Part shown: piece by piece, positions 22,748 to 60,384 of the stretch
Numbering within the stretch: position 1 is the stretch's first letter
Layout: every line of letters starts with the position of its first letter
Assembly: GCA_947087265.1 (NCBI GenBank)
Contig: CAMUBY010000002.1
Coordinates: 124,001-188,000 of the forward strand
From: an uncultured Clostridia bacterium
Lineage (GTDB): Bacteria > Bacillota > Clostridia > Christensenellales > Borkfalkiaceae
Direction: 5' to 3'
DNA: 64,000 nt
Translations under genes and position numbers: made by a program
The notes under the pieces: generated by a model
Databases searched by the model: none
Told to the model about the DNA's origin: nothing
What the model saw: only the letters and a program-made list of their open reading frames with translations

Positions 22748-23554
22748 TTAAGCGTTTTCTGCCAGAGTATAAATTAAATTCATGGTAACGCCTTGATTGG
22801 TAATGCTTAAAGTTAGTTGATTGTTCGATAAAGTAGCGTTTTGCGCCTCGCCGTTTACGGTCATCACTAGCGCCGCTGAGTTCTGCGTATAGGTACCCGT
22901 TGCCGTGTTTCCCATAACGCTCATCGTAAAGCCGCCGTTCGAATCGAATGCGACGGTTGAATCTGCGTACCCTGCTTTTAACGCTGCAAGCGAGTTGTTT
23001 AATTCGTCTTTCACTTCTTGGTTAACCGAACTGTTAAACGAAACCGACAAATCGGAAAAGTTGAACGTTTTTCCTGCAACGGTAATCACACTTGCATCGC
23101 CCTCGTCTTCGTTTTCGTTATCTCCGCCGCTGATTTCGCCGACGCTCGATTTATCTAATCGATAAGTAAGTTTGAAAGAAAGTCCTTCTTCGGAACCGCT
23201 CATCGTGATAGAATTGCCCGAAACTTTGAAATTCTGGTCTTCGCCGTACAGGGTCGCCGTTACGGTTGCGCCGCTTTGCGTATAGGTGCCGTTTACCGCG
23301 GTACCCATCATGACCATCTTAAATTCACCGTTTTGCCCGAATTCGAGATAACCGTCTTCATACATTTCGTTCAGCATTTCCTCTGCCAATTCTTTTTCTG
23401 CGCCGGTTGCGCCTTGGGTGATTTCAGCTTTTTCGAAATTGTACTTCTTTCCTGCTACGGAGTCTGCATTTCCGTCGCCGCAAGCGGCAAGCCCGAGTAC
23501 GCAGGCAACGCAAGCAATGAGTGCGATAAGTGTGGTGACAAATCTTTTTTTCAT
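22748..23554 (-). CDS. Lipoprotein with two tandem repeat domains
   Basis: 268 residues. The signal MKKRFVTTLIALIACVACVLG ends in lipobox LAAC, so it is an outer-surface lipoprotein. Two related domains follow, starting VAGKKYNFEKAEI and VAGKTFNFSDLSV; each has a GTYTQ stretch before a short beta-rich end. A linker rich in Asp, Glu and Gly separates them. The neighbour at 23846 has the same architecture, so they are paralogues. The start at 23554 is fixed by AAGGAGAATC. The transcript leader carries the structured RNA at 23577-23735. Function unknown. Confidence 0.85.
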   Translation of the reverse strand: MKKRFVTTLIALIACVACVLGLAACGDGNADSVAGKKYNFEKAEITQGATGAEKELAEEMLNEMYEDGYLEFGQNGEFKMVMMGTAVNGTYTQSGATVTATLYGEDQNFKVSGNSITMSGSEEGLSFKLTYRLDKSSVGEISGGDNENEDEGDASVITVAGKTFNFSDLSVSFNSSVNQEVKDELNNSLAALKAGYADSTVAFDSNGGFTMSVMGNTATGTYTQNSAALVMTVNGEAQNATLSNNQLTLSITNQGVTMNLIYTLAENA

Positions 23555-23576
23555 GTTTTGATTCTCCTTGTAAAAT

Positions 23577-23735
23577 AAAAAAAGTGTGTTTCCAAACCGA
23601 AAACACACTGCACTGCATCTCCGATTTGTCACCACACAAATGATACCGATAAGACACAACACAAAGGTATAAAGAGATACACAATGCCTAATGATTGTGA
23701 CCCCTCGTGTCGTGTTTTATTCACTTGTGTGGTGT
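23577..23735 (-). ncRNA. Structured leader RNA, copy 1 (two stems, pseudoknot, terminator)
   Basis: Read on the minus strand from about 23735. P1 pairs 23725-23734 with 23630-23639 (CACCACACAA/TTGTGTGGTG). P2 pairs 23707-23715 with 23654-23662 (one G-T). In the loop, GTATCTC (23680-23674) and GCAT (23687-23684) can pair with GAGATGC and GTGC at 23621-23615 and 23613-23610, just 3' of P1, as a pseudoknot. A terminator follows (stem GTGTGTTT/AAACACAC, T-run to 23577), 22 bases before the lipoprotein start. Same plan as the copies at 43547 and 60231. Confidence 0.75.
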
Positions 23736-43473: not shown

Positions 43474-43503
43474 AAAAAGGGCGAATTTATTCGCCCTTTT
43501 TAT
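43474..43503 (+). terminator. Terminator of the rubrerythrin gene
   Basis: Stem AAAAAGGGCGAA/TTCGCCCTTTTT, loop TTTA. Confidence 0.88.
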
Positions 43504-43512
43504 TTTGTCCGC

Positions 43513-43541
43513 TTGACATTTCGATAGACGTATGCTAAGAT
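43513..43541 (+). promoter_or_regulatory. Sigma-A promoter of leader RNA copy 3
   Basis: TTGACA (43513-43518), 17 bp, TAAGAT (43536-43541). The expected start is the first base of stem P1. Confidence 0.8.
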
Positions 43542-43546
43542 ACCTA

Positions 43547-43690
43547 TGCTACACAATTTTATAATCGACACGAGGCGTATAATGCGAAATTTGTACCGCC
43601 TTTCTTACCTCGTGTCGAGAAATTGTGTAGCAACAATCAGGCGGTTGCATTTTCGGGGTGTGCCTCTTGATTGGGGCACACTTTTTTTTA
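43547..43690 (+). ncRNA. Structured leader RNA, copy 3 (two stems, pseudoknot, terminator)
   Basis: P1 pairs 43547-43559 with 43620-43632 (13 perfect pairs, TGCTACACAATTT). P2 pairs 43565-43575 with 43608-43618 (11 perfect pairs, TCGACACGAGG). In the P2 loop, AATGC (43581-43585) and ACCGCCT (43595-43601) pair with AGGCGGT (43639-43645) and GCATT (43647-43651) just after P1, making a two-part pseudoknot. A terminator follows (GTGTGCC/GGCACAC, eight T), 18 bases before the small membrane protein gene. Same plan as the copies at 23577 and 60231. Confidence 0.8.
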
Positions 43691-43707
43691 TTGGAAGGAG
43701 GTATCTC

Positions 43708-43929
43708 ATGTTTCAAAAAAACAAGAATTTATTATTTGCCGCACAGTGCATTATGTATACAATTCTTGTCCTCATCGCTTGTGGCGCAGCTGTTTCCGGA
43801 GTAATATGCATGGCGTATGTTAGCATTAAGCTCGGCATTATTACTATAATAATGGGATTGGTAGTTTTTGCCGTTTTGTTTAGTTTTTGGTTTTGTTTAG
43901 TTTTTGGTTTTGTTTATTTGAGTTTCTGA
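43708..43929 (+). CDS. Small two-helix membrane protein, C-terminus frameshifted by a tandem repeat
   Basis: As it stands this codes for 73 residues with two membrane helices (LLFAAQCIMYTILVLIACG and LGIITIIMGLVVFAVLFSFW). Inside the second helix a perfect 17-bp tandem duplication shifts the frame and leads to an early stop. Removing one copy restores an open frame of 109 residues whose hydrophilic tail ends KTEKPIDIYNKD with a stop at 44052. AAGGAGG precedes the ATG, and the transcript leader is RNA copy 3. No family recognised. Confidence 0.75.
   Translation: MFQKNKNLLFAAQCIMYTILVLIACGAAVSGVICMAYVSIKLGIITIIMGLVVFAVLFSFWFCLVFGFVYLSF
43874..43916 (+). repeat. 17-bp tandem repeat, two full copies and a partial third
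   Basis: TTTTGTTTAGTTTTTGG at 43874-43890 and again, identical, at 43891-43907, followed by TTTTGTTTA. 17 is not a multiple of 3, so copy number decides the reading frame. Confidence 0.95.
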
Positions 43930-44054
43930 AACACTTAAACAATAAAGTGTTCGGCGAAAACAACGATAATTTCGACAAAGGAATTCCGAAAACAGAAAAG
44001 GTTTCAAAAGTAGGGAAAACCGAAAAACCGATTGATATATACAATAAAGATTAA
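43917..44054 (+). other. Detached out-of-frame tail of the 43708 gene
   Basis: Read in the frame that would follow with one repeat copy, this stretch encodes 45 residues starting FEFLKHLNNKVFGENN and ending in TAA at 44052-44054. No other gene is seen here. Confidence 0.7.
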
Positions 44055-57247: not shown

Positions 57248-60184
57248 TTACTCTTTCGGCAAATCCCCGTCCGTACAGTGAACGGTGTAGTCAGGTGTAT
57301 TAAAATTCCAATGATAACCTTTTTTAATCGCGTTCCATTCCGCTTTCGTTCCTTTGAAGTGAATATCGGTAAGTTTCTCGCAACCACTGAACGCAGAATA
57401 TTCGATACTTTTTACGCCGTTTCCGATTGTAACGTTTGTAAGGGATTTACAATCATAGAACGCATACTGTCCGATACTTGTTACGCCGTCGGGAATTACA
57501 AGTTCACCCGATAATTCTTTGCCGTTGATATATAACGTTCGGCTACTTGACATTAAATAATCAAGTCCCGATATTCCGCACCAACTTGCAATATCGCCCG
57601 TATGGGTAATGCTTGTAAGGGAATCGCAATCATAGAACGCATCCTTTCCGATACTTGTAACACTATTCGGAATGGTAACGCTTGTAAGTTTACTGCAACC
57701 CAAGAACGCATACTGTCCGATACTTGTTACGCTGTTTCCAATTGTAACGCTTGTAAGAGATTGGCAATAATAGAACGCATAACTTCCGATACTAGTTACC
57801 CCATTTCCGATTGTAACGCTTGTAAGTTTACTGTAACCCCTGAACGCGTCCTTTCCGATAGTTGTTATGCTGTCAGGAATGGTAATTGCGCCGCTAAGTT
57901 TCGCAGGGATATATAAAAATTCCGTTTTATTTTTATTGTATAAAATTCCGTCTTGGCTTGCGTAGTTTGAGTTGTTTTCAGAAACCTTAATGCTTGCAAG
58001 GGAACTGCAATTCTCGAACGCAGAATCTCCGATACTTGTAACGCTGTTGGGAATGGAAATGCTTGTAAGAGATTTGCAATACTTGAACGCACTATCTCCG
58101 ATACTTGTAACGCTGTCGGGAATTGTAACGCTTGTAATTTTACTGCAATCCTCGAACGCAGAATATCCGATACTTGTTACGCTGTTGGGAATGGTAACGC
58201 TTGTAATTTTATTGCAACCATAGAACGCGCAATTTCCAATACTTGTTACGCCGTCGGGAATTACAAGTTCACCCGATAATTCATTGCCGTTGATATTTAA
58301 CGTTCGACTACTTGACATTAAATTGTTAAGTCCCGATATTCCGCACCAACTTGCAATATCGCCCGTATAATAAATGCTTGTAAGTTTACTGCAACCACTG
58401 AACGCATACTTTCCGATACTTGTAACGCTGTCGGGTATGGTAACGCTTGTAAGTTTACTGCAACCATTGAACGCAGAATTTCCGATATTTGTTACGCCGT
58501 CGGGAATGGTAATTGCGCCGCTGATTGCTTTTGGAATAAGAAGAAATTCTGTTTTGTCTTTATTGTATAAAATTCCATCTTGGCTTGCGTAGTTTGAGTT
58601 GTTTTCAGAAACCGTAATGCATGTTAGGTTACTGCAACCACTGAACGCGTCCTCTCCGATACTTGTAACGCCGTTTCCGATTGTAACGCTTGTAAGGGAA
58701 CTGCACCACATAAACGCAGAATTTCCGATATTTGTAACGCTGTTTCCGATTGTAACGCTTGTAAGGGAACTGCAACCTTCAAACGCAGAATTTCCGATAC
58801 TTGTTACATTGTTCGGAATTGTAATTTTCGTAATGTCGCAACCATAGAACGCAGAAGCTCCGATACTCGTTACGCTGTTGGGGATAATAATACTTTTCAG
58901 GGAAGAGCAATCCTTAAATGCAGAATCTGCAATCGTTAAAGTACCTTCCTTTATCATGTAGTCTTCGGGAAGGGTGTTTTTTGCCCGAATTAAATGCTTG
59001 CCGCTGTATAATACGCCGTCTTTCCAATTGCTTTCGTTTTTGTAGTATGGGGTACGGGATAGCGCGTTTTCTCCGACTCCTGTAATTCCGTCTCCGAGGA
59101 ATACCGTCTGAATTAAATTTTCATATTCTTTGGGAATTCCGTTGAATTTTCCGTTTCCCGAAACTTTGAGGGAGAAGGTTACGCCCTCATAGATATAGCC
59201 ATTGTATTCCCCGTCGGAAAGGGCGGTCAGCATTCCCAAAAAGCCGTTGCCAAAGTCTACCGTGAGTTTTGCTCCCGCTTTAATTTCTTTCCCGACCGTA
59301 GCAGACGTTTCGTAACTTCCGTATTTATCTTGCCAAATCACTTTACATTCATTTCTTACGCTTGAAGTATCGCCCTCCACCTCAGCGGTAGCGTAGCCTT
59401 TTTGGTAACTGCCGTCTTTGTATTTTATTTGATAGGCGATTTCCGCTTCGGTTGCGTACATGGGAACTATAATTTCTTCACCGTCCGCACTTTTTACGCT
59501 CGAAACTTTCTTTTCGGTATTCTCGGCGGAGCGGATGCGTTTCGCGTCGAACCAAACGTGGGTAACAAGCCCGTTTTCGTCGAACTTCACTTGAATATAT
59601 TTATGCTTTTGCGTTTCCAACTTCATGCCGTCCTCTAAAATCTGTTCGAGGTTGTTCATCATATCTTCCTCGCTCTCATTCAGGTGCATGAGTTTCAAGT
59701 AACTGTCGTTATAATATTCCCAAGTGCGCTCGTCTGAAAGGTCGGGCTTGCCGAGTACTTTTTGCACCGCCGCCTTGTCGTCGCCCAAATCGATTGCGGA
59801 AACTTTCCCCGAACGGAAAATGTTGGTTAAGTAGGGAATGACGGTGGAAAGAATAATCACCAATGCCAGAGCCAGCGCGGCAACTACGCTTATCACAATT
59901 TTGTGCCGTTTCAAAAAAGGCAGGAATTTCCCTTTCATACAGGGCACGAATTTGCCCTTGTACCAACTCACAATCGGGTTGGGCTTTTTCTCTTTCTGCG
60001 CCTGCGCTTCTTTGCTGTTCGGCACGGTGTAAAGGTCGGCGCCGCAGTTTCCGCAGAATTTTTTGCCCTCCGCAACTTCCGCGCCGCACCAGGGGCAGCG
60101 GTGTACGCCGCTTTCGGCAGGCGTTCCGCATTCGGGGCAGAAGTTGCTTTCAAATTCTGCGCCGCATTTTGTGCATTTGTTCAT
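57248..60184 (-). CDS. Zinc-ribbon, membrane-anchored BspA-type leucine-rich repeat protein
   Basis: 978 residues. Two zinc ribbons at the N-terminus (CTKCGAEFESNFCPECG; CPWCGAEVAEGKKFCGNCG) precede one membrane helix (about 95-119, VISVVAALALALVIILSTVI), an SmpA/PepSY-like region, and a long run of LRR_5 repeats of about 23 residues (pattern IPNSVTSIGASAFYGCSSLT). The ribbons should be cytoplasmic and the repeats outside, where BspA-type repeats often bind host or matrix proteins. Insert blocks starting VSENNSNYASQDGILYN and GDIASWCGISGL each occur twice. Start at 60184 with AAAGGAGAAG. The leader is RNA copy 2. Confidence 0.88.
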   Translation of the reverse strand: MNKCTKCGAEFESNFCPECGTPAESGVHRCPWCGAEVAEGKKFCGNCGADLYTVPNSKEAQAQKEKKPNPIVSWYKGKFVPCMKGKFLPFLKRHKIVISVVAALALALVIILSTVIPYLTNIFRSGKVSAIDLGDDKAAVQKVLGKPDLSDERTWEYYNDSYLKLMHLNESEEDMMNNLEQILEDGMKLETQKHKYIQVKFDENGLVTHVWFDAKRIRSAENTEKKVSSVKSADGEEIIVPMYATEAEIAYQIKYKDGSYQKGYATAEVEGDTSSVRNECKVIWQDKYGSYETSATVGKEIKAGAKLTVDFGNGFLGMLTALSDGEYNGYIYEGVTFSLKVSGNGKFNGIPKEYENLIQTVFLGDGITGVGENALSRTPYYKNESNWKDGVLYSGKHLIRAKNTLPEDYMIKEGTLTIADSAFKDCSSLKSIIIPNSVTSIGASAFYGCDITKITIPNNVTSIGNSAFEGCSSLTSVTIGNSVTNIGNSAFMWCSSLTSVTIGNGVTSIGEDAFSGCSNLTCITVSENNSNYASQDGILYNKDKTEFLLIPKAISGAITIPDGVTNIGNSAFNGCSKLTSVTIPDSVTSIGKYAFSGCSKLTSIYYTGDIASWCGISGLNNLMSSSRTLNINGNELSGELVIPDGVTSIGNCAFYGCNKITSVTIPNSVTSIGYSAFEDCSKITSVTIPDSVTSIGDSAFKYCKSLTSISIPNSVTSIGDSAFENCSSLASIKVSENNSNYASQDGILYNKNKTEFLYIPAKLSGAITIPDSITTIGKDAFRGYSKLTSVTIGNGVTSIGSYAFYYCQSLTSVTIGNSVTSIGQYAFLGCSKLTSVTIPNSVTSIGKDAFYDCDSLTSITHTGDIASWCGISGLDYLMSSSRTLYINGKELSGELVIPDGVTSIGQYAFYDCKSLTNVTIGNGVKSIEYSAFSGCEKLTDIHFKGTKAEWNAIKKGYHWNFNTPDYTVHCTDGDLPKE
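57350..58960 (-). repeat. Tandem 69-bp-scale leucine-rich repeat units with higher-order duplication
   Basis: About twenty units encoding the repeating TSIG-x-x-AF-x-x-C pattern. Two longer segments recur nearly identically: the one around 57950-57985 again at 58570-58606, and the one around 57500-57580 again at 58260-58370. This shows duplication of multi-repeat blocks. Confidence 0.85.
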
Positions 60185-60230
60185 CTTCTCTTCTCCTTTT
60201 TTTCGCAAGGTAAATACGGCAACGCAAAAT

Positions 60231-60378
60231 AAAAAAGGCGCGCCCTCAACCGAAGACGCGCCCTGCATTCCGTATCTCCGAGTTGTTACCACGCAACTAA
60301 ATTTAACCCCACAGGATAATAGAGATACAAACAATGCCATTTTGTACCTGAGGAGTAAAATTTATTCAGTTGCGTGGT
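60231..60378 (-). ncRNA. Structured leader RNA, copy 2 (two stems, pseudoknot, terminator)
   Basis: Read on the minus strand. P1 pairs 60368-60378 with 60288-60298 (11 perfect pairs, ACCACGCAACT). P2 pairs 60347-60360 with 60302-60315 (two mismatches). In the loop, GCATT (60337-60333) and GTATCTC (60328-60322) pair perfectly with GAGATAC (60278-60272) and AATGC (60269-60265), just 3' of P1, forming a pseudoknot. A GC-rich terminator follows (GGCGCG/CGCGCC, six T ending at 60231), 46 bases before the BspA-like start codon. Copy 1 shares GAATAAA after P1 and the GTATCTC element. Confidence 0.8.
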
Positions 60379-60384
60379 AGTTGC

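Follow-up and report, generated by a model that had tools for sequence, protein, structure and literature searches.

A structured leader RNA and a small membrane protein gene with a displaced reading frame lie side by side in the window (the whole stretch of DNA that was analyzed, 64,000 nucleotides). With fair confidence, we favor a joint explanation in which the gene starting at position 43708 (the 43708 gene), a member of a two-helix family, would have suffered a recent and revertible frameshift, while the leader RNA (43547-43691) that lies directly upstream of it probably governs its expression. The leader matters more than the duplication that shifts the frame: if it acts as proposed below, one common RNA signal would control surface display at the level of transcription termination in a large, mostly uncultured bacterial group. 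The duplication alone is an ordinary type of mutation, and it offers a clean, testable candidate for a reversible truncation. The features discussed are collected in Table 1.

Table 1. Coordinates of the features in the window
Feature	Position	Strand	Basis or remark
Promoter TTGACA-17-TAAGAT (extended -10)	43513-43541	+	-10 box ends 5 nt before RNA start
Structured leader RNA, 145 nt, candidate attenuator class	43547-43691	+	fold, covariation, covariance model
P1/P2 hairpin; P1 TGCTACACAATTT / AAATTGTGTAGCA, P2 TCGACACGAGG / CCTCGTGTCGA	43547-43632	+	fold; P1 covariation
Pseudoknot PK1, 5' strand ACCGCCT, in hairpin loop	43595-43601	+	pairs with 43639-43645
Antiterminator, 5' strand CAATCAGG	43634-43641	+	pairs with 43666-43673; covaries across copies
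Pseudoknot PK1, 3' strand AGGCGGT	43639-43645	+	overlaps antiterminator strand
Intrinsic terminator hairpin, then U run	43655-43684	+	loop carries antiterminator 3' strand
Ribosome-binding site AAGGAGG	43695-43701	+	sequence
Two-TM membrane protein gene, assembled form, 73 aa, truncated allele	43708-43929	+	ORF; relatives' profile
Entire exact 17-periodic run, partial third unit included	43873-43916	+	44 bases, 2.59 copies
17-bp unit, copy 1	43874-43890	+	repeat and sequence searches
17-bp unit, copy 2	43891-43907	+	repeat and sequence searches
Displaced 3' end of coding sequence, with probable juxtamembrane segment and hydrophilic tail (FEFLKHLNNKVFGENND...IYNKD)	43908-44054	+	profile, codon usage
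Third window leader copy	23574-23734	-	19 nt before 268-aa lipoprotein gene (22751-23554)
Second window leader copy	60228-60379	-	43 nt before 978-aa gene with N-terminal zinc ribbon

The 43708 gene carries a 17-bp tandem duplication

The gene starts with the ATG at 43708, with AAGGAGG upstream. Inside it, the 17-mer TTTTGTTTAGTTTTTGG is present twice in perfect tandem (43874-43907), and these two are its only occurrences in the 1.43-Mb genome. An earlier note on this DNA had described two identical 17-mers followed by a partial third unit, and they were found just so, in a run from 43873 to 43916; the TRF call covers 43862-43916 with 3.1 copies, its 5' unit being imperfect and containing CC. 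The background rate of tandem duplications was taken from one 268-kb contig (C2), in which four exact adjacent duplications of at least 10 bp were present in 268,000 bp, the 17-bp one being the longest. No unit of at least 14 arose in order-2 Markov simulations (3 of the whole contig and 3000 local ones).

With two copies, the frame runs into the stop codon TGA at 43927-43929 and the product has 73 amino acids; with one copy, it has 109 amino acids, ends at 44054 and carries the C terminus IDIYNKD. Both frames were recomputed and agree with those given in the earlier note. Zero copies lead to a stop after 59 amino acids and three copies to a stop after 69. The duplication sits within helix 2 of the protein, and the frameshift removes the tail and, with it, the probable juxtamembrane segment.

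Relatives of the 43708 protein and the ancestral frame

A genus-wide protein search returned weak full-length relatives, which are about 25 to 31% identical to the 43708 protein. They have MFxKND at the N terminus and a basic juxtamembrane segment (DIKLIRNKLYG) in common, and they frequently end in a SHOCT domain. The 43708 protein begins with MFQKNK and fits the family in its N terminus and its two hydrophobic helices; among these small membrane proteins with two helices, it is one of the short ones. Its two-helix N-terminal half and, in the one-copy frame, probably its juxtamembrane segment match those of SHOCT-tailed small membrane proteins (Pfam PF09851; PMC3581485), and the relatives that bear SHOCT include L009 (34.7 bits for SHOCT) and L012. 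In contrast to the SHOCT-tailed proteins, the 43708 protein lacks SHOCT itself, since a search of the 109-aa one-copy reading gave no match to the domain; the same holds for the short members L072 and L077.

A profile was built from 20 distant relatives, with the window sequence left out. The 73-aa form, of which residues 1 to 62 are matched by a profile of relatives at an E value of 7e-4, scored 28.5 bits, compared to 45.1 bits for the one-copy reading, and because of this rise of 16.6 bits the lost tail would hold the juxtamembrane segment of the family (DIKLIRNKLYG-like). Taken alone in its own frame, the tail scored 6.1 bits, a value equalled by 3 of 5000 shuffled tails; when shuffled tails were joined to the N-terminal half, about 10 of 5000 reached 45.1 bits. 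The 73-aa form lacks the juxtamembrane segment, whereas FLKHLNNKVFGENND of the one-copy frame aligns at its position in the relatives, with modest homology (p of about 0.002). The segment is kept, intact or diverged, in all 20 relatives.

The earlier note had considered the case of no coding conservation past 43929. What was found there is the opposite: the gain in profile score, the best codon-usage score among the six frames and a frame free of stops, which would be open by chance with a probability of about 0.01. Since the profile match of the tail, the codon usage and the open frame all point the same way, the one-copy frame is, on this evidence, the ancestral frame. The exact ancestral copy number is not fixed by it, because the relatives are about 5 residues longer in this part of the protein and because some two-copy readings with an additional indel score slightly higher, the best of about 110 such hypothetical readings reaching 49.4 bits. 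An in-frame 18-bp duplication that then lost 1 base scores the same as or slightly above a plain 17-bp duplication against the profile, and the two are inseparable by score.

Origin and status of the truncated allele

The one-copy arrangement holds the 10-bp direct repeat GTTTTGTTTA twice, 17 bp apart. Since this pair is kept in the one-copy state, slippage could plausibly both create and remove the duplication. By the route that the sequence suggests, replication slippage between the GTTTTGTTTA repeats would have made the 17-bp duplication that shifts the frame in helix 2. Because slippage is possible in both directions, the truncated allele is likely to be a recent, easily reversed frameshift mutation rather than an evolved switch. 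A mutation of this kind accounts for all the observations on the gene. The 73-aa product is probably non-functional or altered, a loss of function that we infer; it retains two hydrophobic stretches, and it might still function.

Orthologous DNA of the gene was absent from 60 near relatives in a DNA search, neither the back-translated tail nor the exact tail pattern had a match in the genome contigs collection, and searches of plasmids and phages gave no match. The gene could be a simple pseudogene that is decaying in its lineage, with the duplication as one fixed lesion. Its narrow distribution, its low GC content (33%, compared to 49% in the window) and the different sequence found upstream of the same phosphoribosyltransferase gene in G019 would fit such a decay, but the lesion is single, with no other damage to the promoter, the leader, the ribosome-binding site or either coding half. 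We consider the pseudogene possible, though doubtful.

The earlier note had proposed phase variation. The frameshift and the coding tail of that proposal were upheld; the switching was not, the array being seen in one allele, with only two full copies, and having no counterpart in the DNA of any of the 60 relatives. Phase variation by simple sequence repeats works by slipped-strand mispairing, for example, in Neisseria and Campylobacter (reviewed in PMC11868660), and the 43708 array is like these systems in that an intragenic tandem repeat has a unit that is not a multiple of 3 and a change in copy number shifts the frame of an envelope gene. It would then be a contingency locus that toggles by slippage between the 109-aa (on) and the 73-aa (truncated) form. 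The long frame is restored only by 1 (or 4) copies, the longer protein is homologous to the relatives, and the direct repeat persists in the one-copy state, all of which would suit a switch. However, the array is not a long tract but has only 2.6 copies of a 17-mer, is known from one assembly with one allele and no second state, is absent from the relatives examined and has nothing comparable in 268 kb of contig. An evolved switch is therefore quite unlikely.

An assembly or polishing error would imply that there is truly one copy or that there are two copies plus one base, i.e., an in-frame 18-bp duplication. The run is T rich, and with one base added to the two copies, the helix would come close in length to that of the relatives. 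On the other hand, the 44-bp array is well within the length of short reads, the assembly, of 17 contigs, reaches 98% completeness, and a base-level mistake in the form of a non-homopolymer 17-mer duplication is unusual. For a 44-bp array an error is unlikely, and we give the explanation as a whole a very low probability. It is highly improbable that the gene is meant to make the 73-aa form and that the frame beyond it is there by chance: this form has its own start, ribosome-binding site, two hydrophobic stretches and stop, but the tail frame adds 16.6 bits to the profile score, stands out by its codon score and openness, and would encode the juxtamembrane segment that the relatives keep.

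A structured leader RNA upstream of the 43708 gene

Folding of the leader region gave an MFE z-score of -8.2. Ten aligned copies of the leader share a stem of about 12 bp (P1), in which pairing is kept through UA, CG and GC changes; P1 is conserved, and P2 is fully paired yet free in sequence. Just 3' of P1 lies the 3' strand of the pseudoknot PK1, AGGCGGT in the window; in most other copies, the two PK1 strands read GTATCC and GGATAC. The segment that follows P1, CAATnnnGGGA, also pairs with TTCCnnnATTG of the terminator. We compared each pairing with permuted ones. For PK1, the mean was 6.59, compared to 6.29 with swapped partners, and none of 2000 permutations reached the observed value, a signal that comes mainly from divergent copies of the leader. 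For the antiterminator, it was 8.13, compared to 5.37 (again 0 of 2000), whereas a control pairing was reached by 304 of 2000 permutations. Because both helices use the same GGGA bases, PK1 and the antiterminator are mutually exclusive. The forced antiterminator costs 0.2 to 6.0 kcal/mol above the MFE; in a transcript whose terminator is still incomplete, the antiterminator is the fold of lowest energy.

A promoter lies upstream, an intrinsic terminator precedes the start codon, and a covarying antiterminator excludes the terminator; as far as folding and covariation tell, the layout is that of a transcription attenuator. Some signal would control the switch. With PK1 formed, the GGGA-type bases would be held, the terminator would form and transcription would stop; with PK1 open, the same bases would join the antiterminator and transcription would continue. 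Attenuation by the leader is testable in vitro without culture of the host. An invertible promoter at the inverted repeat 43547-43632 was also considered and rejected, since the promoter lies outside the repeat and since PK1 and the antiterminator show a covariation for which a DNA inversion site would have no need.

Between a rubrerythrin-like gene and the leader lies a perfect bidirectional terminator (43474-43501). It draws sub-threshold Rfam matches on both strands, which we rejected as chance matches. In G019 (L095, contig C18), the same phosphoribosyltransferase and HTH-membrane genes occur together with a different small gene upstream, and the spot between is variable.

Distribution of the leader and the genes behind it

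A DNA search of the genus returned an 87% copy of the leader in one genome (G023) and weaker copies elsewhere, upstream of unrelated genes. With a covariance model, to whose seed the window copy belongs and which this copy matches at an E value of 2e-26, the leader was located in 88 of the 103 genomes that represent the genus, and a single genome can hold as many as 15 copies. Among the genomes sampled from the order it was present in 109 of 396, from 38 of 142 genera, and among those sampled from the class in 74 of 391, with good scores in distant families too. The genome studied here has four clear copies and a marginal one (E value of 0.002); the window holds three of the clear copies. Antisense matches of the model at leader sites reflect the palindromic P1/P2 hairpin.

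Genes next to the leader form a coherent set: they encode lipoproteins, LRR proteins of the BspA type, zinc-ribbon proteins and, in two cases, relatives of the 43708 protein. A lipobox was found in 58 of 95 such genes, compared to 3 of 35 background ORFs, and an N-terminal zinc ribbon in 16 of 95, compared to 2 of 35; by Pfam, 46 of 86 leader-next proteins have BspA-type LRR_5 and about 11 have zinc ribbons. A promoter-like site scoring at least 9 of 12 lies within 80 nt upstream in 87 of 96 leader copies. The two relatives of the 43708 protein (L067 and L072) come from other taxonomic families, where they follow the leader at 63 and 15 nt. Their genomes have one leader match each in the scan of the order, and since both relatives thus follow single copies, the leader and the 43708 gene family are tied together.

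Is the leader known, and is it a switch?

In Rfam 15, no family reached its gathering score over the leader (the window copy and 22 other loci), and the matches were far below threshold. A full-text search of the literature found no leader described upstream of lipoprotein, LRR or zinc-ribbon genes. Large RNA catalogues (PMC2864571; PMC8040213) likewise hold candidate structured RNAs upstream of genes of gut bacteria; a text search gave no match for lipoprotein, LRR or zinc-ribbon leaders, and the leader may already be catalogued under another name, for example, in a set of 3161 motifs or a list of 224 motifs from 2017. Transcription-attenuating riboswitches and T-box leaders have the same order of promoter, structured 5' domain with a pseudoknot, and an antiterminator and a terminator that exclude each other, all ahead of the ribosome-binding site. 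In contrast to them, the leader occurs in up to 15 copies per genome, lies before genes for surface proteins rather than metabolic genes and has no match in Rfam. It looks like a candidate for a new attenuator or riboswitch-like class. The chances seem to us about even that it stands for a class-wide family of riboswitch-like, pseudoknot-gated attenuators, as yet undescribed, which would respond to a signal and, in each genome, coordinate many surface lipoproteins, LRR proteins of the BspA type and small proteins of the envelope, with the 43708 gene in the regulon.

The leader might instead not act as a switch at all: it could be a small RNA that stands alone, or a palindromic repeat that spreads and came to lie before surface genes by chance. 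With the strong terminator at its end, an RNA of 140 nt would build up, and up to 15 copies per genome would also suit such an element. Both are unlikely, however: the next start codon follows the end of the RNA at a median of 31 nt, exported proteins are strongly overrepresented among the products of the downstream genes, and a covarying antiterminator competes with the terminator.

Three copies of the leader found at the level of the class (L238, L239 and L240, each at 1501-1659) form a distinct subtype with the conserved loop ATACTTTGGNAAAAGGTGTTTTCTC, which suggests that the RNA has subclasses. The 978-aa gene behind the second leader copy of the window, a gene of the surface type, contains long arrays of imperfect, in-frame 69-bp repeats of the LRR type (57605-58804), and their copy number could vary between strains.
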